Source of the DNA: a virus
IMG/VR virus record: IMGVR_UViG_3300033977_000049
Location: 1-64,000 of that record
Direction: 5' to 3' (one strand)
DNA length: 64,000 nucleotides
The translations under genes and the position numbers were made by a program. Numbering within the stretch: the stretch's first letter is position 1; every line of letters starts with the position of its first letter. The notes beneath the pieces were generated by a model. It saw nothing but the letters and a program-made list of their open reading frames with translations, was not told where the DNA came from and made no database searches. Below are positions 30,250 to 48,487 of the stretch, piece by piece.

Positions 30250-31200
30250 TTAAAAACCCTCAGGAACCACGGGTTCAAATGTAGAAGGTCCGGTACTAGT
30301 TACGGCTGATGCTATAGTAGGATTACTTACATCTGCAATTAACTGAGGAGTGCTATTGGTAGGGGTAGAACTTCCACCACCTAAAACCCCTCCCCATTGC
30401 CCAAGACCTCCGCTAAGATAATTAGCTCCAGGTCCAGTTGCCCAGGATGATCCGCTGGCTGCGCCCCCTACGGCCTGCCCGAATTGCGCTCCTAATTGTG
30501 CCCCTGCTGGTCCGCCCAAAACTGCTCCTGCTATTCCACCCAAAGCTCCTCCAATTGCGCCCCATGGACTTGCAGCGGCTTGTTCTGCTGCTATTTGAGT
30601 TTGAGCAGCAAAGGCTTCTTTACCAGCCGCGCTAGCTTGAGCGGCCATAGATGAGGGCGCTTCTAATGCAGCGGTTTGACCAAGCACACCAAGGGCGGTC
30701 TGCCAATTCTGTCTTCCCTGTGCATATCCAGCTTCCGTAATTCCTGTCATTAATTGTGATTCTTGACCTGCCGCTGCTTGATAGCCTTGACCTTGTAATT
30801 GTGCCGCAGCGCCACTAGGGAGGAACGCATTACCCCCTCCCCTTGCCGCCAAAGCTTCATTTAGCGCCTGTTGATTGGCCGCAAAAGTAGTTGCAGTTTG
30901 TCCAATAGCCTGAGTTTCAAGCGCTGCCTGTTCTGTTGGAGAAAATCCATATTGATTAGGCCCGGCAGCTACGATCCCTTGAGCAGCATTTCTAAGGCTG
31001 CCTAAAATAGCCTGTTGACCAGAAAAGGCAGTCGCCCATGCATTATTAAGAGCGGCATAAGTTCCGGACATATCATTAGCAATAGTAGTTTGTGCCACTG
31101 AAGGTCCCTTGGCTAATTCTAATAGGCCATGGTATTCATAAAATTCATGCTCAAGAATATTACCATGCCAATCTATAACAAATTTGGTTGTTATTCTCAT
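30250..31200 (-). CDS. Alanine/glycine-rich structural protein, 316 aa
   Basis: The first 35 residues look globular (FVIDWHGNILEHEFYEYHG). The rest is dominated by alanine, glycine and glutamine, with long helices and a glycine-zipper-like segment (GAIGGALGGIAGAVLGGPAG, about 215-235) that can cross or disturb membranes. This composition is typical of proteins ejected from podovirus heads to form a channel. The role is inferred. Confidence 0.6.
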   Translation of the reverse strand: MRITTKFVIDWHGNILEHEFYEYHGLLELAKGPSVAQTTIANDMSGTYAALNNAWATAFSGQQAILGSLRNAAQGIVAAGPNQYGFSPTEQAALETQAIGQTATTFAANQQALNEALAARGGGNAFLPSGAAAQLQGQGYQAAAGQESQLMTGITEAGYAQGRQNWQTALGVLGQTAALEAPSSMAAQASAAGKEAFAAQTQIAAEQAAASPWGAIGGALGGIAGAVLGGPAGAQLGAQFGQAVGGAASGSSWATGPGANYLSGGLGQWGGVLGGGSSTPTNSTPQLIADVSNPTIASAVTSTGPSTFEPVVPEGF

Positions 31201-31201
31201 A

Positions 31202-31375
31202 TTACTTCTCTTTGGGACTAACTAACTCGTGGGCAGCAGAAATTACTTTCTTTGCCAACACGTTAATTTCTTTTGCAGATACGTTAGGGAAATGGGATCT
31301 GACTATGCGCCCAACAGTAAAGTGCGATAATCTATTAATAGAATTATGGATTTCTCGCCTTTGATTTTTATTCAT
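31202..31375 (-). CDS. Small basic protein, 57 aa
   Basis: An unreported short frame fills the gap between the alanine-rich gene and the glycosyltransferase gene. It starts MNKNQRREIHNSINRLSHF, and its ATG overlaps the glycosyltransferase stop. It stops one base before the next start. It is basic and helical. Tight packing on both sides favours a real gene; function unknown. Confidence 0.55.
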   Translation of the reverse strand: MNKNQRREIHNSINRLSHFTVGRIVRSHFPNVSAKEINVLAKKVISAAHELVSPKEK

Positions 31376-32583
31376 TAAATATTTAACGCTCCCGCTGGTC
31401 TATATCCATTTTTTAAGGATACTAATTCGGCCACTACCCAGCATTCTCCGTCAAAATTTTTCTCGGTTGTAAATAAGCGAGGGGCTTGAAATCTTACCGG
31501 AGTTCCTATTTGCTGAGCTTTGATTTTATTAGTAAAATATAGAAAGCTATTTTGATTCCAAAAGCTTTTATTAGAAGAGTCTTGAAAGGCTCCTCTGCCA
31601 TCGGTTGAAGAAACTTGAATGAATGCCCATCCAGCCGGGGCTAAAACTCTATACAATTCCTTTATAACGTGAATGGGATCTTTTAATTTAGAAAATATAT
31701 CGAAAGCCCTTATAACTCCCACCGAACTATCGGCTAAGGGCCATTTCTTATTTAAATTATTATCTAGGCATGTAAATCCTTGGCGCGTGACTTTACCCAA
31801 TTCTATTTTCTTCAACCCATTAATATCTGCCCAGCGCTCTGTAAGTTGTTTAATATATTTATCATATATCGTAAAAACATTATCTTGAATCTCTGCATTA
31901 ATATCTGATTTTAGCCAAGTATTTTCTCCATGAATTCTGTAAATATATAAACCTTTATCAATTCTGAGAAATTTAGTGGCTAAATACATTCTGCATATTA
32001 AATCCAAATCATCTAATACCCTTAAATCTTTTGCATATCCACCAATAGATTCATAAACGGATTTGCGAAATGCTCTTATGTGATCTGGGGCATACCAAAT
32101 TCTGGAAACAGAATCGGGATATGGATCAAAGGCAATGAATTCATTTAATTTTATCCCATTCCATTCTATTTCTCTATATTTCCAACCATGAGTTTCATCG
32201 TACAATGCAGGCTTCGTATAGCGCGGGCCTTCTTTATTCAATTGAGCATGGACTAGATTAGAATATACAAATCCAATTTCTGGATCTTGAAAGGCTTTAT
32301 AAACTTCCTCTAAGGCGTTGGGCATTAAAAGATCATCGTGATCCATTTCCACAAATATCTCTCCTGTAGCTTTTGCACATGCCGCCGCCTTTAGCGGACC
32401 AATCATTTTAGGGGCATTCCATTCTAAAAATCCCTTAACCCTAGAATCACTAAATTGAATGGGCTGTGCCCCGTTATTATAAAGGATTATCCATTCCCAA
32501 TCCGTATAGGATTGTAATTTTAAAGATTCGTATAACTCATTCAACCATTTAGAATCATGCGTTGCAGTGTATACTGAAATCAT
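31375..32583 (-). CDS. Glycosyltransferase family 2 fused to a degenerate methyltransferase-like domain
   Basis: Residues 1-230 form a GT-A fold with VYTATHDS at the start and a DxD-type site in EMDHDDLLMP (metal and nucleotide-sugar binding). Residues about 255-402 resemble a class I methyltransferase (VTRQGFTCLD, WPLADSSVGVIRAFDIF, ELYRVLAPAGWAFIQV). The glycine-rich SAM-binding loop is shortened to ELGKV, so this half may be inactive. It starts directly at the stop of a second glycosyltransferase gene. A role in decorating the fibre is inferred from position. Confidence 0.8.
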   Translation of the reverse strand: MISVYTATHDSKWLNELYESLKLQSYTDWEWIILYNNGAQPIQFSDSRVKGFLEWNAPKMIGPLKAAACAKATGEIFVEMDHDDLLMPNALEEVYKAFQDPEIGFVYSNLVHAQLNKEGPRYTKPALYDETHGWKYREIEWNGIKLNEFIAFDPYPDSVSRIWYAPDHIRAFRKSVYESIGGYAKDLRVLDDLDLICRMYLATKFLRIDKGLYIYRIHGENTWLKSDINAEIQDNVFTIYDKYIKQLTERWADINGLKKIELGKVTRQGFTCLDNNLNKKWPLADSSVGVIRAFDIFSKLKDPIHVIKELYRVLAPAGWAFIQVSSTDGRGAFQDSSNKSFWNQNSFLYFTNKIKAQQIGTPVRFQAPRLFTTEKNFDGECWVVAELVSLKNGYRPAGALNI

Positions 32584-33110
32584 TATTTTGGTGCGCTCCG
32601 ACTTCCAGAATGAATTCTATATATCCAAGTAATTTCTGGAATAAATTTAAATTTAGCTCCAAGCTCGCCCAATCTTAACCACATATCCCAATTGGGATAA
32701 ACGGCCTTTCTAAATCCATTTACACTTAGCAGTGTAGATTTTTTGGTTAAAACAGTTGTTGGAATATAATTTTTTACCCTTAATGAAAATAAATCAAAAT
32801 CTTGAGATGTCCAGCTTTTACAGGCTCCCTGCATTTCGCAATCAGAATAAATTACGTCACATTCATCATGTTCTGCCCATAATCTTTCTAAATGATGTGG
32901 AAGAAATAAGTCATCGTCATTTAAAAATGCAATCCATTCTGTTTTTGATTCTCTTAATAAAGTATTAAGGGTATCAGCCTCTCCCTTGCGCTGTTGATCT
33001 ATGGCAATAATATGGTCAAACGCCTTCATAGTTTGATGTGAAACGGATTTCCTGCATTCCGTTAGCATACAATAGCGCTCTGGAAGAGATGGAGTTAAAA
33101 CTGTAATCAT
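32583..33110 (-). CDS. Glycosyltransferase family 2, short
   Basis: I chose the ATG at 33110 (MITVLTPSLPERY) instead of the longer frame from 33122. The 175-residue GT-A domain has LNDDDLFLP as its metal-binding site and ends with WIYRIHSGS, typical of GT2 enzymes. It lies directly downstream of the collagen-like fibre gene, with two bases between them. The substrate cannot be read from sequence; the fibre is an attractive candidate. Confidence 0.82.
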   Translation of the reverse strand: MITVLTPSLPERYCMLTECRKSVSHQTMKAFDHIIAIDQQRKGEADTLNTLLRESKTEWIAFLNDDDLFLPHHLERLWAEHDECDVIYSDCEMQGACKSWTSQDFDLFSLRVKNYIPTTVLTKKSTLLSVNGFRKAVYPNWDMWLRLGELGAKFKFIPEITWIYRIHSGSRSAPK

Positions 33111-33111
33111 A

Positions 33112-34836
33112 TTACACCACAATTAAAGTTGCTGAAGAATAACCTTGAAGATCTGCAACTTGACCGGCATTTGTAGTCTGTCCTTGTACGTATAAGTGTG
33201 CAGCGCTACTAGGAGTAACAATTGTTCCTTTAATTAAAACCCAACTATATCCGGTTGCTTGACACATTACCGCCCCGACTGATCCAAAGCCAACAGTACC
33301 CACAGCCCCTATCAATTGTGCGCTTAGAGAAGTATTTACTCCCTGTGCTCCTTGCGCTCCCATAATTAATACAGAACCACTAGACATGGCTACAGTACCC
33401 TGTATAGTAAACTGCAAGCCCTGTGCTCCAGCGGAGACGTAAATGGGTAAATATATATCTACTTGATAAGCCGTGGATGTGGCTAATGTTGGAAAGGCAA
33501 ATATATTAGATAAAGTAGTGCTTAAAGAAGCTGCCGCAGCATAGTAAGCATAAAGTGCTCCAGTTGGCCCTGTATAGCCAGTATATCCTGTATATCCAGT
33601 GAAATTACCTGCTCCAGTATAGCCCGTGTAGCCTGTATATCCAGTAGGGCCTGTATAGCCGGTATAACCTGTAAAATTTCCTGGGCCAGTATAGCCAGTA
33701 GGGCCAGTATATCCAGTATATCCAGTAAAGTTTCCCGGTCCAGTATATCCCGTTGGACCTGTGTATCCTGTATATCCAGTATATCCCGTGAAGTTGCCCG
33801 CTCCCGTATATCCAGTAGGGCCTGTATAGCCGGTATAACCTGTAAAATTTCCTGGGCCAGTATAGCCAGTAGGGCCAGTATATCCAGTATATCCAGTAAA
33901 GTTTCCCGGTCCAGTATATCCAGTTGGGCCGGTATATCCGGTATAGCCTGTATATCCTGTAAAATTTCCCGGTCCTGTGTAACCGGTGTATCCCGTTGGA
34001 CCGGTTCCGGTATATCCAGTATATCCGGTATAGCCGGTTGCACCCGCTCCTGTATAGCCTGTATATCCAGTATAACCAGTAAAATTACCAGGTCCGGTAT
34101 ATCCGGTATAGCCGGTTGCACCCGCTCCTGTATAGCCTGTATATCCAGTATAACCAGTAAAATTACCAGGTCCGGTATATCCAGTTGGCCCTGTATATCC
34201 AGTTGGTCCTATTACTCCAGCAGTACCTTGAGGTCCTGTATAGCCGGTATAACCGGTATATCCAGTTGGGCCAGTGTATCCAGTAAAAGCTCCAGATCCG
34301 GTATAACCGGTATATCCAGTTGGACCGGTATATCCCGTAAATGCCCCAGGGCCGGTATAGCCTGTATAACCCGTAGGGCCGGTATATCCAGTATAACCTG
34401 TAAATGCACCGGGGCCAGTATAGCCTGTATAGCCAGTGGGACCTGTATACCCCGTATATCCAGTAAATGCACCCGCGCCGGTATATCCAGTGGGTCCAGT
34501 ATATCCCGTATAACCAGTATAACCAGTTGGTCCAGTCGCTCCAGCCACGCCAATAGGTCCAGTATAACCTGTATAGCCGGATGGTCCGGTATATCCAGTA
34601 TATCCAGTTGGGCCAGTATAACCAGTAAAATTACCCGGACCTGTATATCCGGTATAACCAGTAGGACCCGAAAATCCACCATAGGGAAGAGAATTCCAAG
34701 CTGTTACACCATCCCCAATTTTTATTTGATGGGTATCGATTTCTAGTCCCATTTCTCCTGAATAGAGAACTGGGTTATTCGATGTCCAGTTGGAGGCGGT
34801 ATCTCTTCGGAATTGAAAGATCAAATCGAAAGACAT
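33112..34836 (-). CDS. Collagen-like fibre protein
   Basis: Residues 1-54 form a conserved phage fibre N terminus ([20 protein letters not shown], then [17 protein letters not shown]). About 55-428 is an almost unbroken Gly-X-Y array built from GYTGPTG and GYTGYTG units, with threonine in nearly every third position and tyrosine or proline in the second. Residues 430-574 form a hydrophobic, glycine-rich beta head likely to trimerise. It would be a rod-like fibre on the tail or capsid. The dense threonines suit O-glycosylation, as in the Bacillus BclA collagen-like protein. Confidence 0.85.
33555..34671 (-). repeat. Gly-X-Thr collagen-like coding repeat
   Basis: About 1.1 kb of 9-base periodic sequence encodes collagen-like triplets. 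Blocks such as [18 protein letters not shown] recur at intervals with small variations, a sign of duplication and slippage. Long open frames in other phases here are by-products of this repeat. Confidence 0.9.
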
Positions 34837-35069
34837 TATGAAACCTGTGCAGAATTACCAAAATCTATCGCAAAACAACTACTGGTTCTCGGGGTAGAAG
34901 CAGAACCTCCATCAATAAGTAAATTGCCAAAGAAAATAGTAGCCATCTGATTTAATGAAGCCTGTACCGTTTGGCCGCTTTGCACTAGGGGTATAATTTC
35001 CCCTCCCTGTAGGGCAGCGGCTTGCGGCAATTGGCTTATTTTTATCTCTTGTCTATTAATATATGCCAT
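34836..35069 (-). CDS. Small fibre-associated protein, 77 aa
   Basis: The segment [20 protein letters not shown] (11-30) is typical of N-terminal attachment regions of phage tail-fibre and baseplate proteins. The stop overlaps the fibre gene start. It may be a connector or adaptor for the fibre. There is no recognised catalytic motif. Confidence 0.65.
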
Positions 35070-35071
35070 GA

Positions 35072-35410
35072 TTAATATTTATTAAAAAATCCAGACAGCC
35101 ACGGTTCTTCTTTTAAAAAAGTAGAAATTAAATTGTGCATAGAATCGTTCAAGGGATTTTGAAGCATGATCGCTGACTTGGCTGCTGTAATGGAATCGTT
35201 TTGAGTTAAAGATAGATCGCAAGCGGCGCTTGACGCATACATTTTAATCCAAAAAGAATACCAAGCATAACTTACCGCATTTAATAAAAGCGTTCCATTT
35301 AATTGATCCAGCCAATTTACTGTGTTATCATCTAAAATGGTTTCGCATTCTAATAATGTACTAGATTCGGTATCTATAAGCGTTTCACTTTCTGTCATTA
35401 AGTCGAACAT
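35072..35410 (-). CDS. Hypothetical protein, 112 aa
   Basis: An acidic, threonine/glutamate-rich N terminus is followed by helices and a final EEPWLSGFFNKY. The C-terminal pattern resembles that of the 86-residue product at 47213 (EDPSLAQFFSSY), so the two may be distant relatives. It overlaps the multi-domain glycosyltransferase gene by 13 bases. Probably a virion or assembly protein. Confidence 0.55.
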   Translation of the reverse strand: MFDLMTESETLIDTESSTLLECETILDDNTVNWLDQLNGTLLLNAVSYAWYSFWIKMYASSAACDLSLTQNDSITAAKSAIMLQNPLNDSMHNLISTFLKEEPWLSGFFNKY

Positions 35411-38400
35411 TCTAGCTTAGCCAACTCTTCTTTTAAAATCTTTCTATCTTCTTCGCGGTGCGACCATCCAAGTCGATATATATCATCCATAACTTTTGGC
35501 TCTCTGGAAAAATGATGATGAATCATTTTGGCATCTTCGCACCTATGGGCTTCATTTATTTTAATGGCCCTGGACCATAACAGGTTATCGCATCCTACAT
35601 GAAAAAACTTTTCCGAAAAGATTTCTCCGAATTTTTCAATCAAATCTTTTCTAATTAAAAAGTGCTCGCAAATATTACTTTTGTCTGGATAAAGCTCTCC
35701 GGTATTAAATGTTACAAGGCCATGATTCTTTGATGCCTTTACTGCATTATAAAGGCTCCAGGATTCAAACTCCGTATCATTAGCGGCAAAAACATAAACA
35801 TCAGAATTGTTGTTTGCGCGGTACATTCTATTAACTTTTTGAGGAACTGTAGCTTTTTTATCGTTATCTATAATAACATCAATGAGATGCTTGGGATAAT
35901 AAAGGCGATCAATTGAATCCAAGCACCGCTTTAGTCCCGATTCTCTTTCTAGGGTTGGAATTAAAATGCCCACCCTAGGAAGGAAATTGGGTGAATCAGA
36001 AGCCCAACTTTTCATAAAATGATGGAATCCTATAGTATTATCCGTTAACCGGATAGTCCCATCTTGATGATTATAGGGGAAAAAATATTCAGGGGAAAGA
36101 ATTTTAATGGTATAATCCGATGCTACCTTTCCTGGCGCTAACCATAGACATCTAGGCTCGCCATAAGCTTGAAGATATATCTTTGGGGTAATCACTTCTT
36201 GCGCTGCTTCAAAGACATATGCATCATCTCCGGAAAATTTTTCTTCTATTTCCCTAAGGCACTCTTTCATAATTGGATGATGCGGAATAGATCCCATTAT
36301 AGAATTAGCAATAAAACAATTTTCTTCTTGGCATACAAATAGCTTATATTGTAATAAATTATCAAAATTTTTTCCCGAAAGAATTTCCATATCGGCATCA
36401 CAATAAATGCCACCTTCTTTTTCTAAATACCACATGCGCAGATAATCAACCGCCTTAATCCATTTTCCCGATGCCAAAGCCTTTTCCACATAAGATATAT
36501 TTCTTGGAATGTCTTTTAATCCAATAATTTTATGCTCGTAACCTAGCACCGCTCGCTGGCTGTTAATACATTTTTCTATAAAGGGTGGCATGGTTTCATT
36601 ATTAGGTAATCCCCATATAGTAAAAATTTTCTTGGGAATTAATAATTCTAAAGAAATCATGTCTTTATATAATTCCTGCATTTCTATTAGAGGGGGTTGA
36701 TAATCTCTTGTTTGGCCTAAAAAAATAGGATCAAATGCACTTCCCGTATCTAAGCATGTAACATTATGATTGGCTTCCAATACACTAGCTATCAGTGGTT
36801 TAGCTGCAAGTCCACAGCTAAATATAAAAATAGAATTATTTTGGCAATATGGGCGTAGCTTGTCTAAAATGGCGTTGTAATTTGCAAATGCATTTCTTTC
36901 TGGAACTTCTATAAATTTAGCCTTCAACATTTCTGTAACTTTACTTAGCTTAGACGGTCCTATAAAAACCTTTATCCTGTCAAGATTGCTTAGGGTTTTA
37001 TAAAAATCATGGATGGGAGTTAGGTCTTTATCTTTTGGATGTAATAAAATATTTCCCAATTGTAAGCTATCTTTATCTCTCCAGAATGCAATGTAAGTAT
37101 CGGGCAGATTATATAAAAAGTTGAATGCTTTGCGCAGGGCTTGATTAAGTTCTAGGGAATAAGCTTGCCCATCACAATTTTCGCCCTTTACATATTCCAT
37201 GCAATGTTGTTCACCGTCGCCAAATTTGATGAAAGCAAATGGTTCGTTCGATATAAGTTTTTGTAAAAGTTCGTTTAACGATTTTGGATATTTTCCAAAT
37301 GGTTTCTCTACTATATCACTATGCCATAACAGACCATCCGGCACTTGTTCCACCTGAGATTCCTCAACAGGATTTCTTTCTTCAAAATATTGTCTATCTT
37401 GATTATATTTTGGATGTTGAGGGTCATAAGCTATAGCTTTTTGCCAGTGCTCTTTTGATTTTTCTTGCTGGCCTAAACGCCAAAATGCCCAATATAACAT
37501 TTCATGGGGATAATTTGTATAGTGCGATCCTATATTGCAATAACAATCATTAAGGGGAATTTCTAATGCAGCCGCTCCATAACATACTGTCTTTTGAGCA
37601 TCGCCCTTTTTATAAAAATATTCAGCTAGTTTAATTAAAGGTTCGCGCCTAGTTCCGTCTACCGTAAAAGATTTATGGTAAGCTTCTAGCGCCCTGTCAT
37701 CTTCACCCAAAGCGAGATAGGAATCCCCTATAAAAATAAAAGATTGCCCGCGCTCCTGTGCCCACCTATTCATTGCAACGTGTCTGTTTAATTCCTGAAT
37801 AGCAGATTTGAAACGCCCATTCCAACATAATTCTCGGCCAAAATAGTGTGCATTTCGGTCATTTTCCGGATGTAAATAACAATCTAGGGCAAGGGCTGGT
37901 AAATAATTAGAGCGATGTTCGTGAGGTGCTTGATGGTGCTCTACTAACATGATTTCTTGGGGTAAATAGGTGCATTTAGCTTGTCCAACTAATATTTCAT
38001 GTACGATTCCCTGCCAGTGCATTTTGCGCCGATCATAAGTTCTGCAATGTCGAAATTGAATAGCGGGCTGCCCATTAGGATATCGGCAGAATATAAAATG
38101 CATTTCCATCTGCTCGTATCCTTCATCAATTAATTTTTCGATAGCATCTATATTTAAGGTGTTATATTTTTCATCACAATCAACAATGGATACGATATTA
38201 TTGTTAGCCAATTCCACGGCGCGATTTCGGGCAGCAGCAAAATCAAATAATTTATCTCCGGCCTTGATAATAGATTCTTCGCCTTCAATAATAAACTTTT
38301 TATTTACCGCGTCGGCCACTTCTTCGGTAACTATGTGTTTAAATTTCTCGCCTTCTTCAAATACTCTATAGCCATAATTTCTGGCTACCTTAACAGTATC

Positions 38401-38571
38401 ATCCTTACTTCCGGTATCAACTAGGACGACTTCCCCGCCTCGCTTTAAAAATTCAGATAAAGATTTATGAAGTCTCCAGAGATTCGGTGCTTCATTGCGA
38501 GCAATTAAGCATACCGAGAAGCGAACTCCTGATTTATGGATTTTTATTGGATGCCGACTTTTCTTTTCCAT
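35398..38571 (-). CDS. Four-domain glycosyltransferase fusion, 1,057 aa
   Basis: The domains in order are: a WaaE-like GT2 domain (about 17-240, LIARNEA and VDTGSKDDT); a TPR-like helical region (about 250-400); a GT-D domain of the DUF1792 type (about 420-640, with FGDGE near 449); a GT32-type sugar transferase (about 660-860, with the DxD motif CDADMEIL near 726); and a second GT2-like domain (about 866-1057, starting GILIPTLE). DUF1792 enzymes elongate O-glycans on bacterial surface adhesins. GGAG before the ATG at 38571 supports the start. Confidence 0.85.
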   Translation of the reverse strand: MEKKSRHPIKIHKSGVRFSVCLIARNEAPNLWRLHKSLSEFLKRGGEVVLVDTGSKDDTVKVARNYGYRVFEEGEKFKHIVTEEVADAVNKKFIIEGEESIIKAGDKLFDFAAARNRAVELANNNIVSIVDCDEKYNTLNIDAIEKLIDEGYEQMEMHFIFCRYPNGQPAIQFRHCRTYDRRKMHWQGIVHEILVGQAKCTYLPQEIMLVEHHQAPHEHRSNYLPALALDCYLHPENDRNAHYFGRELCWNGRFKSAIQELNRHVAMNRWAQERGQSFIFIGDSYLALGEDDRALEAYHKSFTVDGTRREPLIKLAEYFYKKGDAQKTVCYGAAALEIPLNDCYCNIGSHYTNYPHEMLYWAFWRLGQQEKSKEHWQKAIAYDPQHPKYNQDRQYFEERNPVEESQVEQVPDGLLWHSDIVEKPFGKYPKSLNELLQKLISNEPFAFIKFGDGEQHCMEYVKGENCDGQAYSLELNQALRKAFNFLYNLPDTYIAFWRDKDSLQLGNILLHPKDKDLTPIHDFYKTLSNLDRIKVFIGPSKLSKVTEMLKAKFIEVPERNAFANYNAILDKLRPYCQNNSIFIFSCGLAAKPLIASVLEANHNVTCLDTGSAFDPIFLGQTRDYQPPLIEMQELYKDMISLELLIPKKIFTIWGLPNNETMPPFIEKCINSQRAVLGYEHKIIGLKDIPRNISYVEKALASGKWIKAVDYLRMWYLEKEGGIYCDADMEILSGKNFDNLLQYKLFVCQEENCFIANSIMGSIPHHPIMKECLREIEEKFSGDDAYVFEAAQEVITPKIYLQAYGEPRCLWLAPGKVASDYTIKILSPEYFFPYNHQDGTIRLTDNTIGFHHFMKSWASDSPNFLPRVGILIPTLERESGLKRCLDSIDRLYYPKHLIDVIIDNDKKATVPQKVNRMYRANNNSDVYVFAANDTEFESWSLYNAVKASKNHGLVTFNTGELYPDKSNICEHFLIRKDLIEKFGEIFSEKFFHVGCDNLLWSRAIKINEAHRCEDAKMIHHHFSREPKVMDDIYRLGWSHREEDRKILKEELAKLECST

Positions 38572-38983
38572 GGTCGCTCCTTTTTTCTATATCTGATATT
38601 CTTAACCTATAAACCTTCCAGGGCAATTCTTCAAATCCAAATTTTTTGGAAAATGTAGGAATAGTTTCTTCAGTAGCTACATAATATATTTCCCCGGAAC
38701 CTTCTTGTATAGCTGATGTAATGGCATCTTGGAATAGCGTCTGTAATGCTACTGCAATTTCCCCTATCGAAGCTGAAGGATTAATACAAAGGCTTTCTAA
38801 ATGCAAGGGCCTTTGAATTGGTGCAAACATAATTGGCCCATTTTTATTGCAAATAGCTCGAATGGATGTATTTTTATAAGTTAAAACGCTGGGATCTATC
38901 TCATTATTTCTAGTAGACAGTGCCCATTCACAGAATAATTTCCTATCGCTAGCCTTTGCTGGACGCACGAATACGGGTAGCAT
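38534..38983 (-). CDS. GNAT-like acetyltransferase
   Basis: The layout fits a small GNAT fold: VFVRPAKASDRKLF at the N terminus, a central strand LHLESLCINP, the acetyl-CoA-loop region ASIGEIAVALQTLF, and the late KFGFEELPWKVYRL. Similar GNAT genes are frequent next to fibre genes in podoviruses. It overlaps the start of the glycosyltransferase fusion by 38 bases. It could acetylate sugars or a host protein; the target is unknown. Confidence 0.65.
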   Translation of the reverse strand: MLPVFVRPAKASDRKLFCEWALSTRNNEIDPSVLTYKNTSIRAICNKNGPIMFAPIQRPLHLESLCINPSASIGEIAVALQTLFQDAITSAIQEGSGEIYYVATEETIPTFSKKFGFEELPWKVYRLRISDIEKRSDHGKEKSASNKNP

Positions 38984-38991
38984 ATATTCTC

Positions 38992-39384
38992 CTAATTTTT
39001 GGGATCGGCGGTTGCAGCAGTGGACATTTTTGAAGGACTGACCGCAGTGCTAATTTTAGCCTTTGCCATGCCCAGCCTTTCCCTTTCCGCAGTATCCAAT
39101 CGTTTATTAATATCAGTTATGGCTTGTTCTATTCGAGCCACGGCGGGAACAATTATATCTAATTTTTGTTTAAAGTCTTCATTGGCACTTTGCAATGCCG
39201 TTACTTTTTCATTAATAGATGTGGATTGTATGGCATTTCCTGACAGTTGATCCGCCACTTTGGAGCGGTCTGACCATAGCCACCCTATTAATCCAAATAG
39301 AGCACAAAGCAGCATAATAATAACCGTTGCTGCTCCCCAATTAATATGTGGCGATCTACATTCCGGATGATGGTGATTATGCAT
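38992..39384 (-). CDS. Single-pass membrane protein with histidine-rich N terminus
   Basis: MHNHHHPECRSPH is followed by one transmembrane helix (about 17-38) and a coiled coil (about 55-105). The topology is like a spanin or a membrane adaptor. The stop side is close to the GNAT gene, and the start overlaps the preceding glycosyltransferase. The role could be lysis or anchoring of the sugar-modifying enzymes at the membrane; neither is proven. Confidence 0.55.
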   Translation of the reverse strand: MHNHHHPECRSPHINWGAATVIIMLLCALFGLIGWLWSDRSKVADQLSGNAIQSTSINEKVTALQSANEDFKQKLDIIVPAVARIEQAITDINKRLDTAERERLGMAKAKISTAVSPSKMSTAATADPKN

Positions 39385-40516
39385 TTATTTTTCCTTCAGC
39401 AAAGGACCTATTACTGATAATTCTTGATGCTTCATTTTCCGGTAAAGACAAGTTTAAAATTCTATCGCATATTAGTTTGGATAGATAATATTTGCCGACC
39501 CAATAGGCAGAAATGGCAAGTTCGTCTAGTGCTCGCCATTCATATACTTCTTTTTCCACAAACAATCTATCATTTGGAATCGGTATGTTTACTGCTTGTT
39601 GGGCAAAAAGAAAAGCAGCATCATGATAATTATGACATCTATAATATCTAGCCAGGCGATATATAGGTTCGGCCCTAGTCGGACGGCGATTATAGGCCCT
39701 TAAATATGAAAATACTATTTCTTTTTCTGATAAATCAAGTTGCTCTGATACGCAGCCAATTTGATATGCCGACCACCAAGCCTCTTCATCCCAGCCGCCC
39801 ATTTCCATCCGTCGTGTATAAAGATCTATGGCTTCCTTAAAATTTCCAAGATCACGATGGGTTTGGGCTAGATAAAATATTGTACGGCAATCGTCTGGAT
39901 TTTTTCTATAAGCCCCTAAAAGAAGCCCCAAATCCCTTTCTAGCTTTTCTTTATATTGTTCCGGAGTTTTTCCGGGTCGTTCTCTATAAATTCCGGAAAG
40001 CGGATACGTGGTATAAAATCTCTGACAATCCAGATATTCATGAGTCTCACCTTTCCAAATCCAAGGTAAATTGCTTCTAATTAAAAATGGCCTTAAATAT
40101 TGCAGTGAACAATATTTTTCCAATATTTCATAGCAATCTTTTTCTAGGGGATCGGGAAGTTTGAAATTCGTGTCTGGAAATAATTTTGTGCGCCCATCCA
40201 TAAGCATAATATAATCACAATTCATTTCTTGGGCTAATTTTAGTGCTTCATTTCTATTATGCTCAAAATTTTTCCATTCGCTAGTTTTTATTGTTATCGG
40301 AAGGCCAAGATTATTACACGTTTCCTGGCAAATCTGTAAAGTATTATCTTTGCTTCCGGTATCTATAATTGCGGCATGTGTAATAAAGGGCAATGCCGAT
40401 TTAATAGTATTTTCTATGTATTGCGCCTCATCTCGCACAATCATATTCCAGCAAATTGTATTTTTAGTTAAAGCATTTGGCTCGTTAAAACGACGCCGAT
40501 CAATAACTTTTATCAT
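39377..40516 (-). CDS. Glycosyltransferase family 2 with TPR region
   Basis: Residues 20-190 are a WaaE-like GT2 domain (NMIVRDEAQYIENTI, IDTGSKDNT, EHNRNEALKLA, MLMDGRT). Residues 205-379 contain TPR-like repeats (FYLAQTHRDLGNFKEAIDLY). The N-terminal domain resembles that of the four-domain fusion at 35398, so the two probably share ancestry. TPR-fused glycosyltransferases often modify proteins rather than lipids. It lies between the LamG fibre gene and the fusion gene. Confidence 0.82.
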   Translation of the reverse strand: MIKVIDRRRFNEPNALTKNTICWNMIVRDEAQYIENTIKSALPFITHAAIIDTGSKDNTLQICQETCNNLGLPITIKTSEWKNFEHNRNEALKLAQEMNCDYIMLMDGRTKLFPDTNFKLPDPLEKDCYEILEKYCSLQYLRPFLIRSNLPWIWKGETHEYLDCQRFYTTYPLSGIYRERPGKTPEQYKEKLERDLGLLLGAYRKNPDDCRTIFYLAQTHRDLGNFKEAIDLYTRRMEMGGWDEEAWWSAYQIGCVSEQLDLSEKEIVFSYLRAYNRRPTRAEPIYRLARYYRCHNYHDAAFLFAQQAVNIPIPNDRLFVEKEVYEWRALDELAISAYWVGKYYLSKLICDRILNLSLPENEASRIISNRSFAEGKINA

Positions 40517-40527
40517 TTTCCCCTTTT

Positions 40528-43281
40528 TTAAGTTACACTTATCAAAAATACAATTTGATAATTACCATTACTTCCTGCAACTGAATAAGAAAATGTGGGA
40601 TTTAATGGCCCGCCCGTAGGAATGCCTGTATATAAACAACCAGAAGCATTAGCACCATCATTAACCTGTTGCTGTTTCGTAACCGTAGCTGCTGGATCGG
40701 ATACAGTATCAGTAGAAGCAGCGCGATTAGAACCAAAATAAATCGCCAAATCCGTAGAACATGGAGAGGGTGAGGTACTTGAGTTCATGCTAAGTGTTAT
40801 AGAAGAAGATCCAGTTGTATTAATTTGACTGGTAATGGGAAACCAAATTCTATCCATGCCCTTGAGAGTTATAATGGCTAAGACCGCATCATACGTTCCA
40901 CTAAAACTGATTGTAACTGATCCATTGCTAATGTCAGTAGAATTTAAAACTTTCCAAAAAGTATTTTTTGTCCAACTAGCTTGATTAACTGAATCAATGG
41001 AAACCCATCCGTTAGGAGTTGTGGCATAATAACCTCCAGCCGTAAAAATAATAGCCAAATCACCAGCTTGGGTTCCCGAAGGCCAAGAAACTGTATAACT
41101 TGACGCACTCGATGCTTGAATGCCAGTTCCCCTAATGGATGGCGTGGAAACCGCCCCTCCCGTAGCACCAGTTGGTCCGGTTGCTCCAGTGGCTCCTGCT
41201 CCAGTTACTCCAGTTAGTCCAGTGGGTCCAGCGGGTCCAGTGGGTCCAGCGGGTCCAGTGGGTCCAGTGGGTCCAGCGGGTCCAGTTGGCCCTTGTAATC
41301 CAGCAGCCGCCGTATTTGGCGGACCTTGCACAATAGTTGTATCTGTAACGGCTCCGGCCCATCCATTACCACTTAAATCCGGCTCTGGGCTAGTGCCCAT
41401 AAATTTCCAATAAACTGTAGGATAGCCCACCGATACATCCATTGAGGGATATCCATTTGCCAGATTAGTTATATCTGTTGCGGTTAATTCTTTTCCTATC
41501 CACACCGCAGGCTCGGCAACGGAATGAGGTGAAAAATAGCTTGTAGTAGTTCCCACTATACCAGCATTAGTCTGGAAAAATCCATTAGTACCAGTCATAG
41601 GACCTTGATTGCTTCCCGGACCAATCGTAGAAACTAATGCTCCGTTTAAATAAGTATAATATGTTCCATTCCCAGAAGTAATAAAGGCTATATGATTCCA
41701 AACTCCCACCATTCCAGCCCAATAACTCGATGGAATACATACAGCGCCCCAATCGATCCAGGCTTGGGAACCGGAATTATAATAAGAAGTCCATAATAAT
41801 GCTCCTGATGGGCCGCTTTGCACATCCCAATCTAGGGCCATGTCGAAATAATAATTTGCCGATCCATCATTCCAATATGATTCTGCAAAACAGCATTCTA
41901 TAGTATCACTTGCTTGGCCAGTTTTAGGTTGCCATAATGGTTTAAACCAAAATGACATAGACATAGAACCGCCAGAATATGTAATTCCAGAACTGGTGGT
42001 ATAGGTTGTGGTTATATGTCCTGTAGAGCCATCGCCTTTACGTCCGGAAAATGGAGCAGTGGCATTAGCGCCCGTTGTTCCGGTTAATCCGGTTGGACCA
42101 GTCATGCCAGTTGGCCCTGTTGATCCAGTGGGTCCTGTTCCCCCACCACCCGATCCTCCCGTTGGAGCTTCCCAATTTATTCCATAGGGCTGAGAAGGAT
42201 CAACGGTTAATACATAACCAGCGGTTGCTCCTACTGGTAACACTACATCTTGTTTGCCGCTGCCAGTAATTAATCCGCCTTCAGGCAATAAGGGTAGTCC
42301 CGTTATAATTTGCTGAGCCGCAGAGGAAAATGTTGCTAAAATGACCGCATAAGCTGCCGCTGATGTTCCCGGACCCCCTACCGATGAGGTTACTTGACCA
42401 GATGGCAGATTGCTTATCGATGCAGTAGCAATCTCATACCAACCGCTACTCCAGGAGGGAACCGTAAATGAAGAGGGAGACCAAGATCCCCATGTTGGGG
42501 TATAATAAAATGAAAAAGTAGCAAGGGCCAATACCGGACCAGATGAACTAACTGTGCTAGTAGCAAGTGTTCCCGGTTGATTTCCAGCATTTCCCGTACC
42601 AACTGTTAGACTTGGCTTTCCTTGAATTTCAATAACATAACAAACATCATATCCGTATCCCGGAGTTGGCCAAGTGTTAGAAGTAAAATTCCAAGAGCTT
42701 CCATCTCCCGATTGGACAATTTTTTCTCCTATAACTGCATTGCCGCCATATCCAGAACCGCTATAACTGGATAATTGTTTAAATCCAGTCGGAAGATTTA
42801 TTGTAACCGGACCACTGGACGAACTAGAGAGTGCTATAGCTATTAACGTATTTCCTGGTGTGGGAGAATTAGGAAGAGTAACGGTAAGTGGATTGGAATA
42901 AACATTTCCAGTTTGAGAAGCTTGTACGATTTGAGGAATAGTAGGCGCTGTGGGTTGTACCGTTACAGTTCCAGCAGCAGCTTTTTGAGCCGCTTGATTA
43001 GCTTTTACAAGAGCTTGCTGCGCTGTATTACTTATCAGCGTAGGCATTGTAGGAAGATTTCTAACAAAAGTTGGCCGATCTGGAAAGAATCTGGTTGTAT
43101 AAATATCAGCAGCCGGATCTACGGGAAGATTCCCACGATTGGGAGATGGATTTCCGGGAACAGATAGAAGGGTTCCTTGATCCTTAGTTGGCGCTATGGG
43201 AATTTGTGGCGCTGGATTTTGCGAGGATTGAAATTCCGCCTGCGTTGCTGGCGTTGCCGCTCTTGATTCAAGTGATGGCAT
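40528..43281 (-). CDS. Fibre protein with LamG-like domain and collagen-like hinges
   Basis: The 917-residue protein has a proline-rich N terminus and beta-rich repeats (about 100-350). A short Gly-Pro-Thr stretch follows (around 375-405), then a LamG/concanavalin-like lectin domain (about 420-640, [25 protein letters not shown]). A second Gly-Pro-Thr stretch (about 660-710) leads into a beta-sandwich C terminus. This suggests a receptor-binding fibre with flexible collagen-like joints. The start has no strong Shine-Dalgarno. Confidence 0.75.
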
Positions 43282-43286
43282 CTAAT

Positions 43287-46200
43287 TTATTCTCGTCCGC
43301 TTAGACTTCCCCAAACGGAAAGGGTATAAAGCTCATTTCTTACGGCTTCCGCTGGAAATGCTATTTGCATTTGTATATGCCGACCAATAATTGGTACAGC
43401 GCCTTGCAAAAGATAAAACCTCTTACTCATAATCGAGGTACTAGGGGTTAAAATCGGAGGATCGCTTACGCTATTAGGAAGTGCTTCAAATGAAATGCGA
43501 GTTGGATTTAAATAATCATAAACCTCATCTAATATAACGCTAACGGTTGGAATGCTTCCTTTATTAGGCAATTCAACAGTAATACTTTCAATTTCCGCTA
43601 TCTGTCCCGGTTGGGCCAAAACCAAGCTACCAAGAATAATAGAACCAGTATATGTATTTCCTAAATCGGTAAATATTCCATTGGGTCCGGGAGGAGTTCT
43701 ATAGGCAACCATTGCCTGATTCGTGTATGAATTCCATACCCCAACTAATAATTGATGAACTCCAGGGGCGGTTTCGACAGAGCCGATAGATGTATAGCTC
43801 CATTGAGAATTATCGTATCCGGTTCCAGTATTTCCAGTTGCAGCAACTCCATTAGCATTGGTCACTGTGAATGTACTAGAGCCGATTGCCGTTACGGGAA
43901 ATGTTCCGTTATTACCAGCATTCGCCATGCCGATAACAGTAATGTTATCTCCAACTACTATAGCATTACCCGTTAAGCTGGTATAGGTATAAGTCCAAGA
44001 ACTTCCCGAACCTGACACCGTGGTTATGGTATTTATTATAGGACCAGCAAAAAATTTTGCCTTTGGACTCCACGCGGGTCCGCCTTCTGGAGGCTGATTC
44101 CAATTACACCTGTACCAAGTAGAACTTCCATCAGCAAGAAATACCGCTTTATCTGAACTTCCTGAAATCAATGATGCTACGTAAACTGTACTAGGATTAT
44201 ATGCCGGATCAATTTCCAGCCGATTACCAATTGCGAATCCATCCTCATTAATACCAGCAGCCGAAAATCTTATAAATTGGCGGTCGGCAGAATACAACCA
44301 AGTATTTACCCCATCTGCGGCAAGAGCATTATACGAACTAAGTCCAAGGCCCGTTAACATGGGCATGGGATACATGGATGCAAGAGTACTTCCGGCAATA
44401 TAATAAAGATCGGATTGAGTCCATACTAATAAGGCAGATGATGTGGGAACTAATCTATTGATTTGTGTTGGAAAGGTAAAATAATTTAATGGCGGAAATG
44501 CCTCTGAGCCATTTCCAACAAGGCAATCTGGACCAGCAGAATAATAAAGTAAATTGCCGACCGCTCCCCATATCCGCCCTAAATGATAAGCCATCTTAAC
44601 AATGCCAGATGGAGGAGGGTTGTTTACATAATTTACTGGTCCTGGTTGGGTTATTATAAGTGATATATCGGGAGAGTTATCTTCTATTTGTACCGTGCTT
44701 ACGCCCGGAGTCCATCCACTAGGCCAAAGAGTGGTGCAAAGATATGGAGAAGTTGGAATATTTAAAAATATTGATCCACCATCAGTAATACGAAATACCC
44801 AAATTTGATCTACCTGTGGATCGGTAGGGGCTAAAAGCGTTACCTTAACTCCCGTAGCATTTGTAAATATTCCCGTGCCCGTACTAGGAGGAGTGGTGGA
44901 AGAAACATGTCCACTTTTACTATTTCCATAAGCCGCAACATATTGATATCCAGTAAAGGCATTAAATGTTCCGGGCGTGGTATCAATAGATATAGGCGGA
45001 CCTCCGGTTGCCCATATAGTGATTTTAACCCAAGTAATATACCACGTTGCCAATCCCGTTCCTTGAGGATTAAATGCTTGAAGCGCTACACCAAATCCAA
45101 TTCCACCCACACTAGAAGCGGCGATATTTTGTATGCCCCAAAAATCTCCAGCCCCTCCTATGGAAATTGTACTCGAAGAAGTCCCTAACTGTACCGTTCT
45201 TACATTTCCGGTAGGCTGTCCGGCCAATAAAAGCTGAGCGGTTAAATAACATCCCGAAGGATTGCTTCCTTGATATCCATTTACCTGAACCTGAATTCCT
45301 TGCACGACAGATGGAGAAGTAATATTAAATCCAAAATTAGTTCCCTCTAATAAGTCGCTTTTATTAGACGATGGCAAGCTATAAGTAACCGCAATTTTAA
45401 TGGCATCTACTTCACCCACATTTGCTTGCGTTGCCGGATAACCAGTTGCGGTAACTATTAAACTTACTCCAAAGGCAGATGAATTAATAAGATCGGGAGT
45501 TAATGACGATCCCCATAAAACTCCATCGTAACTTCTCCAAGTCAAATTTCCGGGCCATGAATTGGGACTAACATCATATTGGGCATTACTAGATCCAACT
45601 CCCAAAAGTTGCAAAGAGCCATATAATCCGGGATATTGAGAAGTTTGATATTGAGCGGCACATTTTACCGATACTGTAACATCAATAATTTTTGCATATG
45701 AAGGTATGGTAAATCCAAATCCACTTGCCTGTAATGGGCTGGAGGTTGTTCCCGGCTGCATAGTAATAGTAGCACAATTTCCATCTTCGATTTCCACATA
45801 GAAAGGATTCTGCCATTCATTCATGTAATCAATGGCAGCGGTGGGAAATAAAGGCCCCACGACTTTTGAAGGAATAGACCCAACTGTTACTGTAGCGGGT
45901 CCGCCAGTTCCGGTAGTAATACTACCATAAGCGAACCAAGGAACTCCATTACCAAAACTATAATTAGACCCATTGCTAATAACTACATTACCGGCTCCAG
46001 AATTTACAATAGATACTATAAATGGGCTGCTAGGAGATCCCAGCAAAGGCATTGTTACTGCCACGCCGGATGCGTTATTACAAATAATATAAGTACCATT
46101 ATCATTGCTTTGAATTGTATAAGTTGATCCAGTTACAGGGGAATTTGGGCTTTGTGTGGTAGTCAAAACCTGACCGGACTGATAATGAAGATTAGTTCCG

Positions 46201-46850
46201 TCACAATAAAGCGTTACAGTATCGTTAGTGCGAAGCGTAATACTTAATACTCCTGCCGCTGATACATCAGCCGCAGTACCCGGCAGGGAAGGCCCAGATG
46301 GTCCGGAAAACGGACCAATAGAAATACCCCAATTTCTTACTCCCTGTGTGATTCCGCTTACATTAGGGTCGCACCATGCTAAGGCGCGAGAGCCGGTACC
46401 CATATAGAGCACATTTCCCACGCCTTGAAAATAACATTGATTATTAATTTCGGAAGCTTGTTTGGAAAAAATTTGGGTAGATAACGAAGGGGTAATGACA
46501 TCTACTTCCACCGCCGTATCCACTATTACATCAAACGGATTGGGGATAGAAGCTATTTGGCGGAAGGAATAAAAACTTTTGATTTGTGCGGATAGGCTTG
46601 CAGTAGAATAAGGGGCTAATCCAGGACGGCGAATATATGTACCATAATTAGTCAACTCCATATTCGAGCCGTCAACCAACATGTCAGTGCGGACGCCATA
46701 GAATCTGGTATAATACCTACTGTCGGGTCCGTTGAAAGGACTGCGATTAGTCCAAAGGCCAGAGAAGAAATGCTGTGTGGACAGGGGTATAAAATGAGTC
46801 GCGTTTTTAGGTTGAGCGCCAGAAGACTGAAGCAGTCCTGGATCTGCCAT
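43287..46850 (-). CDS. Large tail/appendage structural protein, 1,187 aa
   Basis: It starts with a region common to phage tail-appendage proteins (FSGLWTNRSPF, GSNMELTNYGTYIRRPGL). The rest is threonine-, serine- and glycine-rich beta structure with no enzyme motif. Position between fibre genes and head-tail genes and its size point to a tail tube, needle or appendage scaffold. The N-terminal RRPGL pattern is a repeated feature in structural genes of N4-like and metagenomic podoviruses, from memory. Confidence 0.65.
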   Translation of the reverse strand: MADPGLLQSSGAQPKNATHFIPLSTQHFFSGLWTNRSPFNGPDSRYYTRFYGVRTDMLVDGSNMELTNYGTYIRRPGLAPYSTASLSAQIKSFYSFRQIASIPNPFDVIVDTAVEVDVITPSLSTQIFSKQASEINNQCYFQGVGNVLYMGTGSRALAWCDPNVSGITQGVRNWGISIGPFSGPSGPSLPGTAADVSAAGVLSITLRTNDTVTLYCDGTNLHYQSGQVLTTTQSPNSPVTGSTYTIQSNDNGTYIICNNASGVAVTMPLLGSPSSPFIVSIVNSGAGNVVISNGSNYSFGNGVPWFAYGSITTGTGGPATVTVGSIPSKVVGPLFPTAAIDYMNEWQNPFYVEIEDGNCATITMQPGTTSSPLQASGFGFTIPSYAKIIDVTVSVKCAAQYQTSQYPGLYGSLQLLGVGSSNAQYDVSPNSWPGNLTWRSYDGVLWGSSLTPDLINSSAFGVSLIVTATGYPATQANVGEVDAIKIAVTYSLPSSNKSDLLEGTNFGFNITSPSVVQGIQVQVNGYQGSNPSGCYLTAQLLLAGQPTGNVRTVQLGTSSSTISIGGAGDFWGIQNIAASSVGGIGFGVALQAFNPQGTGLATWYITWVKITIWATGGPPISIDTTPGTFNAFTGYQYVAAYGNSKSGHVSSTTPPSTGTGIFTNATGVKVTLLAPTDPQVDQIWVFRITDGGSIFLNIPTSPYLCTTLWPSGWTPGVSTVQIEDNSPDISLIITQPGPVNYVNNPPPSGIVKMAYHLGRIWGAVGNLLYYSAGPDCLVGNGSEAFPPLNYFTFPTQINRLVPTSSALLVWTQSDLYYIAGSTLASMYPMPMLTGLGLSSYNALAADGVNTWLYSADRQFIRFSAAGINEDGFAIGNRLEIDPAYNPSTVYVASLISGSSDKAVFLADGSSTWYRCNWNQPPEGGPAWSPKAKFFAGPIINTITTVSGSGSSWTYTYTSLTGNAIVVGDNITVIGMANAGNNGTFPVTAIGSSTFTVTNANGVAATGNTGTGYDNSQWSYTSIGSVETAPGVHQLLVGVWNSYTNQAMVAYRTPPGPNGIFTDLGNTYTGSIILGSLVLAQPGQIAEIESITVELPNKGSIPTVSVILDEVYDYLNPTRISFEALPNSVSDPPILTPSTSIMSKRFYLLQGAVPIIGRHIQMQIAFPAEAVRNELYTLSVWGSLSGRE

Positions 46851-47212: not shown

Positions 47213-47473
47213 TTAATAACTGGAGAAAAATTGTGCTAAGCTGGGGTCTTCCGCCAGCCTGTTTTTAATCATGCCATGAATCGGGGCATCGGGTGCAATG
47301 CCTTCCAGGGCGGTATTCCATGCAAGAAAATAATTATTCCATACAGCTTTTTGCGCTATGGATTTTCCGGATAATATTTGGGCACACGAATTTCTAGTAC
47401 TATAGGGAAAGAAAATATTTCCTACTATATCCAAGAGTATATTGGGAGGCATTGCATCAAAAGGAAGGGCCAT
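47213..47473 (-). CDS. Hypothetical protein, 86 aa
   Basis: It starts MALPFDAMPPNILLDIVGNI and ends DPSLAQFFSSY. It is mainly helical. The C-terminal pattern is like that of the 112-residue product at 35072. It overlaps the membrane gene upstream by 17 bases. Function unknown. Confidence 0.55.
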   Translation of the reverse strand: MALPFDAMPPNILLDIVGNIFFPYSTRNSCAQILSGKSIAQKAVWNNYFLAWNTALEGIAPDAPIHGMIKNRLAEDPSLAQFFSSY

Positions 47474-47736: not shown

Positions 47737-47782
47737 TGCTCATTTTACAAAAATCTGTGGTATAATAATCGTGGAGGATGCT
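47737..47782 (+). promoter_or_regulatory. Promoter of the counter-directed HNH gene
   Basis: TTGCTC (47737-47742) and TATAAT (47761-47766) are separated by 18 bases, a sigma-70-type arrangement. GTGGAGGATG follows directly and provides the ribosome binding site. The gene it serves is the only plus-strand gene in the leftward virion block, so a private promoter is needed. The -10 to Shine-Dalgarno part repeats at 8773. Confidence 0.6.
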
Positions 47783-48487
47783 ATGCCACGACCAGTTCAC
47801 TTACGGGCTAATAATGGCCTAAAAATATGTTCAAAATGTCACCTAGAAAAGCCGCTATCGGAATTCTTTAAAGATAAGCGGAATGCCTATGACGGCCTAC
47901 AAGGGCACTGCAAAGATTGCCATAGACACGCTATTAAGAGATGGGGGTTGGCACATAGGAGAAAAATCCCCATTGTTATTGGCTCCGTTGATCCATTAAA
48001 AGAATTGCCACAGGGACCACCTAAAAATGAAAAAGGTAAATATGTCAGGGAGCCTATTATGGAAGGATCAAAAATCTGTTCTCAATGCCATCAAAACAGG
48101 TTGGTTATTGAATATCAACCCCAATCTGAAAATTTAGATGGAAGGCGTAATATGTGCAATGAATGTCGTAGTTTAAGAAGAAGAAAATTTGACCAATTAA
48201 ATCCAGAATTGGCAATTAAAAGAAATAGAAAAAATACTCTAAAACAGTTTCATAATATGACACTTGAAGAATATAACAATTTATTAAAAAAGCAAAATAG
48301 AGTTTGTGCTATTTGTAAAAATCCTCAAAAATGGACGCAAACTAAAAATCTCGTTATAGATCACGATCATAAAACAAATACAAGGCGAGGTTTATTATGT
48401 GTTCATTGTAATAGTATGTTAGGTCAGGCCCATGATAATCCTGACATTCTTCGCTCTGCCGCTGATTATTTAGAAAAATATTCCTAA
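47783..48487 (+). CDS. Endonuclease VII-like HNH nuclease with two zinc-ribbon repeats
   Basis: I use the ATG at 47783 (MPRPVHLRANNG), which has GGAGGATGCT before it, rather than the GTG at 47771. Two similar zinc units (CSKCHLEKPLSEFF with CKDC, and CSQCHQNRLVIEY with CNEC) precede a nuclease domain: MTLEEYNNLLKKQNRVCAIC, VIDHDH, RGLLCVHCNSMLG. It runs against all surrounding genes with its own promoter, which looks like a mobile HNH insertion. The family resolves branched DNA or acts in homing. Confidence 0.82.
   Translation: MPRPVHLRANNGLKICSKCHLEKPLSEFFKDKRNAYDGLQGHCKDCHRHAIKRWGLAHRRKIPIVIGSVDPLKELPQGPPKNEKGKYVREPIMEGSKICSQCHQNRLVIEYQPQSENLDGRRNMCNECRSLRRRKFDQLNPELAIKRNRKNTLKQFHNMTLEEYNNLLKKQNRVCAICKNPQKWTQTKNLVIDHDHKTNTRRGLLCVHCNSMLGQAHDNPDILRSAADYLEKYS

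Follow-up and report, generated by a model that had tools for sequence, protein, structure and literature searches.

A candidate phage module for O-glycosylation of its own threonine-rich collagen-like fibres

Glycosyltransferase (GT) genes beside the tail fibres of environmental phages are usually interpreted as modifiers of lipopolysaccharide (LPS) or DNA, and where phages carrying GTs as well as collagen-like genes have been described, the enzymes have been taken to act on LPS (PMC7029224) or on DNA (PMC10202952). What such enzymes modify is the question raised by a locus in IMG/VR virus record IMGVR_UViG_3300033977_000049, in which four soluble GT genes surround two collagen-like fibres within a tail-gene operon. 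The window analysed here is the stretch of 64,000 nucleotides from position 1 of this 87,974-bp record, the terminase of which has Tunturiibacter phage Tunturi_3 as its nearest cultured phage, at 30% identity. We consider it probable, predicting from genes, folds and gene order, that the region is a phage module that O-glycosylates its own Thr-rich collagen fibres. Conserved catalytic motifs, an association between collagens and GTs found in both directions, and a match of enzyme subfamily to collagen type add to that support. In this locus the sequence allows an acceptor to be named, and the pairing is common, being shared by spore-forming bacteria and by dozens of further viruses.

Positions 31375-46850 on the minus strand hold a single series of tightly packed genes from a tail protein through GT402, in the order tail protein, fibre 2, GT379, a protein of 130 amino acids (aa), a 149-aa protein, GT1057, a 112-aa protein, fibre 1, GT179 and GT402. 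The four GT genes and two fibres, first recognised in a reading of the sequence alone (the sequence-only reading), are all real open reading frames. They are laid out as follows; pLDDT is the predicted local distance difference test score.

40528-43281, minus strand: fibre 2, 917 aa, with a conserved N-terminal head of ~95 aa, two Gly-Pro-Thr hinges and a LamG-like domain; proposed substrate of GT379
39377-40516, minus strand: GT379, a GT2 plus TPR protein of SunS fold (Pfam and model), 11 bp downstream of fibre 2
35398-38571, minus strand: GT1057, a multi-module glycosyltransferase of 1057 aa (Pfam, homologues and model)
37378-38529, minus strand: GT1057 residues 15-398, GT2 plus TPR module of SunS/ThuS fold; proposed first-sugar (Thr) transferase
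36736-37284, minus strand: GT1057 residues 430-612, GT-D-like module, a weak assignment from sub-cut-off TIGR03728 and PF08759 matches; proposed extender
36322-36654, minus strand: GT1057 residues ~640-750, DXD sugar-transferase domain (PF04488, low-confidence model); proposed extender
35401-35988, minus strand: GT1057 residues 862-1057, GT-A-fold module (model pLDDT mostly >85); proposed extender
33112-34836, minus strand: fibre 1, 574 aa, with an Mtd_N head, Gly-Tyr/Pro-Thr collagen and a C-terminal domain; proposed substrate of GT1057
32583-33110, minus strand: GT179, a GT2 domain protein of 175 aa, starting 1 nt past the fibre 1 stop; proposed extender
31375-32583, minus strand: GT402, a fusion of GT2 and methyltransferase-like domains (Pfam); proposed extender or methyl cap

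Fibre 1 joins an Mtd_N head (PF18454, 48.2 bits) to a Pfam Collagen match (PF01391) of 93.8 bits, far over the cut-off, and contains 61 Gly-X-Y triplets in strict runs, of which 36 are Gly-Tyr-Thr and 11 Gly-Pro-Thr. With its Gly-X-Y array, phage fibre head domain and PHROG tail fibre matches, it has the features by which a collagen-like phage tail fibre is recognised. Fibre 2 carries two Gly-X-Thr hinges, with eight Gly-Pro-Thr in strict Gly-X-Y runs, and Gly-Tyr-Thr is not among its commonest triplets. The earlier description of a Gly-X-Thr fibre accompanied by a LamG fibre therefore stands for the collagen and the hinges, while the LamG-like domain, at 25.3 bits, falls just short of the Pfam cut-off of 27.6.

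The ATG of GT179, at 33110, follows the fibre 1 stop in the arrangement TAA-T-ATG (it was preferred to an upstream TTG at 33122, which was rejected) and the start of GT402 overlaps the end of GT179 by one base; given this single-nucleotide spacing and overlap, fibre 1, GT179 and GT402 look translationally coupled. GT1057 lies two genes upstream of fibre 1 in the same operon. Recent acquisition was considered on grounds of composition and rejected: the guanine-plus-cytosine (GC) content of the GT genes is lower (35-37%), yet their third-position GC equals that of the tail genes, and composition hence gives no sign of recent transfer.

Pfam places GT2 in all four GT proteins and TPR repeats in GT379 and GT1057. 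AlphaFold2 models, confident for GT1057 residues 15-398 and for GT379, comprise a GT-A domain and then TPR helices. Their top matches in PDB are SunS/ThuS (7msp/7msn/7msk), at Z 21.5-22.3 for GT1057 and 22.1-22.9 for GT379, and the next rows, well below these, cover the TPR helices only or a lone GT-A domain. In the first module of GT1057 the invariant residues are D131xD133E134, W186 and H191-E192; D131, D133, H191 and E192 are invariant both in 24 phage sequences and in 21 phage and bacterial sequences, and H159-E160 is invariant in the GT379 family. The remainder of GT1057 comprises a GT-D-like stretch, a DXD domain (PF04488, 26.8 bits) and a C-terminal GT-A-like module. The GT-D-like region is modelled at pLDDT mostly 70-94, and a PDB sequence search with residues 428-621 gave no match. 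GT-D was rejected as a firm assignment since its scores lie under the cut-offs of both PF08759 (18.2 bits, E=0.0023, against 27 bits) and TIGR03728 (E=1.3e-4). Residues 622-858 drew only a weak toxin-like/GT match in the PDB sequence search, and the C-terminal module (862-1057) matches many GT-A enzymes at Z 15-17, including GalNAc-Ts. In GT402 a GT2 domain (PF00535, 36.1 bits) is fused to a methyltransferase-like one (PF08241, 23.9 bits).

The association between collagens and GTs was approached from both ends. From the collagen side, IMG/VR contigs were selected without regard to GTs, through DNA patterns that describe three types of collagen; 50 records per type were searched for PF00535 and counts were made on contigs of at least 16 kb. 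GT2 is present in 26/30 contigs with Gly-Tyr-Thr collagens, 18/38 with Gly-Pro-Thr and 4/44 with Gly-Pro-Lys; the Gly-Tyr-Thr and Gly-Pro-Lys sets differ at Fisher P=8e-12, a difference that may be partly ecological, as prophages of other hosts are among the Gly-Pro-Lys records. The same Gly-Tyr-Thr fibre without GTs, which the sequence-only reading had named as evidence that would tell against it, is thus not the rule. At these collagen loci, homologues of the GT1057 N-terminal module (GT1057N) are mostly 0-5 kb from the fibre, and at identities of up to 57%, many of them 45-50% over ~380 residues.

From the enzyme side, an alignment of 24 GT1057 first modules was used to gather viral loci irrespective of collagen, and 80 were counted at an identity of at least 42%. 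A Gly-X-Thr collagen is encoded at 72 of the 80, at a median distance of 1.56 kb and on the same strand in 70/72, and Thr occupies 68% of the Y positions of these collagens; among GT1057N contigs outside the Gly-Tyr-Thr set, collagen is found in 48/54. Relatives of GT379 required a family alignment, a scan with the single protein having found none, and the wider GT379 alignment was too diverse to serve as a scan query. Gly-X-Thr collagen occurs at 39 of the 54 loci of this family (median distance 439 bp; same strand 38/39). In three contigs (L351, L144 and L179), GT379-like genes adjoin collagens with 0-2% Thr at Y, and some members of the family may accordingly modify another residue or protein. 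The broader claim that the wider GT family is tied to collagen everywhere was rejected, since remote relatives in Pseudomonas phage PaBG and Erwinia phage Alexandra speak against it; nearby are genes for NAD-dependent DNA ligase and head maturation protease, and no annotated collagen.

The two enzyme families also differ in the collagens that they accompany. With enzymes dereplicated at 85% identity, Gly-Tyr-Thr makes up 37% of partner collagen triplets in the GT1057N family and 0.3% in the GT379 family (Mann-Whitney P=8e-13), a contrast to be read with the routes by which the families were reached, Gly-Tyr-Thr contigs for GT1057N, and Gly-Pro-Thr contigs plus the window for GT379. The partners of the former are Gly-Tyr-Thr collagens and those of the latter Gly-Pro/Ala-Thr collagens. 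Both pairs in the window follow this match: the Gly-Tyr-Thr fibre is the one accompanied by GT1057, and the Gly-Pro-Thr fibre the one accompanied by GT379. The proposal that the phage glycosylates its own Thr-rich collagen fibre gains support from association both ways, from collagen to GT and from GT to collagen.

Bacterial homologues, at 22-29% identity, show a similar layout. About nine directly precede a Gly-Pro-Thr collagen gene, at 3-90 bp or, in one case, with an overlap; they come from Clostridia and other metagenome-assembled genomes of Firmicutes. A strong family member is present in 43 of 245 sampled Clostridia genomes, and 17 of 30 Clostridia loci examined have a Thr-collagen within 1.5 kb. 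The closest biochemical precedent belongs here, and is not Bacillus BclA or the streptococcal DUF1792 enzymes to which the sequence-only reading had turned: Clostridioides difficile SgtA, which agrees with these homologues in size (358 aa) and domain order (a GT and then TPR), is encoded immediately upstream of bclA3 (PMC7157674). SgtA attaches GlcNAc in a beta-O linkage to Thr, or to Ser where this has been substituted, in peptides from the collagen region of BclA3, and its loss abolishes GlcNAc recognition on spores (PMC7157674).

The relatives of the phage point to an insertion. Flanks and small genes of the block are given here.

43287-46850, minus strand: tail protein kept in relatives, with homologues at the equivalent position in L006, L008, L009 and Tunturi_3; conserved flank of the insertion
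38992-39384, minus strand: 130-aa spanin/holin-like protein with one N-terminal membrane segment and a coiled coil; a comparable small membrane protein is found here in L009
38534-38983, minus strand: 149-aa protein, GNAT-like by eye, with homologues in L008/L009/L006 at 47/41/32%; between the two inserted segments
35072-35410, minus strand: 112-aa protein, no family matched; overlaps the end of GT1057
30250-31200, minus strand: conserved virion-region gene, with a homologue directly after the 149-aa gene in L006, L008 and L009; the other insertion flank

In three related contigs (L006, L008 and L009), the tail protein is followed by a gene of ~100 aa, the 149-aa gene and then the 30250-31200 homologue. 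The ~100-aa gene matches the head of fibre 2 only, and nothing at this locus corresponds to the GT genes, to fibre 1 or to the rest of fibre 2. Whole-record searches of seven related virus records and complete Tunturi_3 detected neither a GT2 nor four successive Gly-X-Thr triplets, whereas cultured Tunturi_5, which shares its host genus with Tunturi_3, encodes a GT379-like protein (gp35) as well as a tail fibre with Gly-X-Thr triplets (gp29). From this gene content, enzymes and fibres appear to be gained or lost together. Whether fibre and GTs are kept together in related genomes had been proposed as a check; they recur together at the 72/80 and 39/54 loci, and relatives without the GTs are also without Gly-X-Thr fibres. 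The isolates with such a pair are Tunturi_5 and, for a more distant relative of the enzyme, Actinomycetia phage DSL-LC01. In DSL-LC01 (L428) two Gly-Pro-Thr collagen genes are separated from a GT by a gene annotated as tryptophan halogenase, the product of which might further modify the fibre. The 130-aa membrane protein is probably outside the glycosylation module, and a Pfam search with the 149-aa protein gave no match. The 112-aa protein and the product of 47213-47473 (minus strand) have similar C-terminal ends, LKEEPWLSGFFNKY and LAEDPSLAQFFSSY respectively, and are possible paralogues, the former within the inserted cassette.

Several points weigh against self-glycosylation of the fibres. 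Four of the 30 long Gly-Tyr-Thr contigs are without a GT2 match, and eight of the 80 GT1057N loci are without a detected collagen. Many of the 80 contigs share other genes and so are not 80 independent cases; this treatment was dropped after the shared-gene test, in which linkage by three shared other genes gave 29 groups, 26 with collagen, and the same linkage reduced the 54 GT379-family loci to 21 groups, 13 with collagen. The seeds of both enzyme families came partly from collagen-selected contigs, and the association counts stand without a measured collagen rate for random contigs. The phage enzyme is just 22-29% identical to its bacterial homologues, and membership of the SgtA family is argued by analogy, through Clostridia homologues of the same layout and not through the SgtA sequence. 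The SunS S-glycosyltransferase model TIGR04195 left the window proteins unmatched at E<=0.01, and bacterial homologues score 20-75 bits against it, far below its 350-bit cut-off. Finally, the presence of fibre 1 on the virion is predicted from its Mtd_N head and tail-gene neighbours.

The GTs might instead modify the host surface (LPS or capsule) against superinfecting phages, and adjoin the fibres as part of a common host-recognition island. This is the usual reading of pelagimyophage host-recognition clusters (PMC7029224), and a second sugar cluster in the record, with a heptose-kinase-like gene and a GT31/GT11-like protein, could serve LPS. We nevertheless regard it as unlikely. An island of unrelated genes would not give the matching of subfamily to triplet (P=8e-13), which therefore counts against it, and it fails to predict the near absence of GT2 beside Gly-Pro-Lys collagens, the peptide-glycosyltransferase fold or the bacterial homologues directly upstream of their own collagen genes. 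Furthermore, no typical membrane segment is evident in any of the four GT proteins (the top hydropathy, 1.81, is inside the GT-D-like fold of GT1057), and they do not show the arrangement of O-antigen conversion (Gtr) enzymes, a membrane-anchored GtrB with a GtrA flippase.

It is also conceivable that the GTs glycosylate another virion or host protein, the collagen fibre being merely a frequent neighbour. The eight enzyme loci lacking collagen would fit, as would mycobacteriophages, in which capsid and tail-tube proteins bear glycans according to work cited in PMC12619734. This seems very improbable to us, given that collagen is the common neighbour in phages and Clostridia alike, with triplet type matched in the phages, and that GT2 is missing from relatives whose tail genes are related but which have no such fibre. 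That the GTs protect the phage from restriction by glucosylating its modified DNA, as phage GTs are known to do and as has been suggested elsewhere (PMC10202952), is scarcely credible here, as the GTs lie within a late tail operon and have the fold of a peptide glycosyltransferase, and Pfam scans, which some small reading frames fell outside, contained no hydroxymethylating or base-modifying enzyme.

If the phage does glycosylate its own fibres, GT1057N would put the first sugar on Thr of the Gly-Tyr-Thr fibre at 33112, and GT379 would do the same on Thr in the Gly-Pro-Thr hinges of fibre 2 (40528). Extension or capping of the glycan would then fall to the remaining GT1057 modules, GT179 and GT402, the last possibly supplying a methyl cap. 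Glycosylation would occur in the cytoplasm on newly made fibres, during late gene expression and no later than virion assembly; the nucleotide sugars would be the host's, possibly UDP-GlcNAc, and perhaps the phage's own sugar genes would add to them. This scheme goes beyond what genes, folds and gene order show: Thr as the modified residue, the choice of sugar, the sequence of reactions, display on the virion and any biological role, be it in adsorption, in stiffness or in a shield against proteases or defence, are all inferred. The candidate sugar genes are these.

5024-6502, plus strand: sugar oxidoreductase and hexapeptide sugar acetyltransferase; possible sugar supply

The product of 5024 belongs to the GFO/IDH/MocA oxidoreductases, with UDP-GlcNAc 3-dehydrogenase as its nearest match, and that of 6023 is a hexapeptide sugar acetyltransferase. 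Their earlier description as WlbA/WlbB-like holds in part, for these two kinds of protein, both of which score below NCBIfam cut-offs; no DegT aminotransferase was found in the 88-kb record, which may be incomplete, and the Wlb pathway (to UDP-diacetamido-uronic acid) was rejected as an incomplete set. The second sugar cluster, at 64178-69896 of the record and outside the window (L017 1179-6897), encodes an HddA-like heptose kinase, a nucleotide-sugar epimerase, a joined GT31-like and GT11 protein, and a 231-aa protein that is GT31-like by eye.

Elsewhere in the window, 17878-27900 (minus strand) encodes a giant virion-region protein of 3340 aa with a radical SAM domain (PF04055, 54 bits, residues 1600-1759) and a DUF7178 match; its homologues in related contigs have just 1203-1659 aa. 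An HNH-like gene (by eye, 47771-48487) and a LAGLIDADG homing endonuclease (PF00961, 42 bits, 55505-56383) lie among structural genes.

A more general proposal, to which we give even chances, is that phages and spore-forming bacteria have a system in common, each collagen being served by a SunS-fold enzyme that is dedicated and matched to it. Of the phage subfamilies, one would read aromatic (Tyr) triplets and another Pro/Ala, phage starter enzymes would often be fused to oligosaccharide-building GT modules, and many environmental phages would have glycoprotein fibres for host contact or shielding. If self-glycosylation is true, a large class of phages builds glycoprotein fibres, which would bear on how adsorption, host range and the stability of phages are modelled, and a ready set of collagen-glycosylating enzymes of differing triplet preference would be to hand. 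In the open-licence literature searched, subscription papers being outside its scope, there was no earlier description of a dedicated GT-collagen pairing.

Among known systems, SunS/ThuS share the overall fold (GT-A plus a helical TPR-like part) and the use of peptide acceptors; theirs are small bacteriocin peptides, however, and the window proteins miss the SunS equivalog model. Mycobacteriophages resemble the proposed module in bearing glycans on their own virion proteins, attributed to phage enzymes (Freeman et al. 2023, as cited in PMC12619734), but in that citing account it is the C-termini of capsid and tail-tube subunits that are glycosylated, and no collagen fibre. Mimivirus L230, which hydroxylates Lys and glucosylates hydroxylysine (PMC4691112), is likewise a case of a virus glycosylating its own collagen-like proteins; it differs in belonging to a eukaryotic virus and in using hydroxylysine, whereas Thr is the likely site here and no hydroxylase was seen. 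SgtA/BclA3 has the same GT-A domain followed by TPR repeats as GT1057 and GT379, in a gene adjoining a Gly-X-Thr collagen, and the distant Clostridia homologues of the phage enzyme also sit directly upstream of Gly-Pro-Thr collagen genes. It differs in that a spore exosporium takes the place of a phage virion fibre, that the phage has two enzyme/fibre pairs, one of them Gly-Tyr-Thr as opposed to Gly-Pro-Thr, and that GT1057 has extra GT modules in one chain. Phage virion glycosylation, Mimivirus collagen glycosylation and Thr O-glycosylation of collagen in C. difficile were already known.

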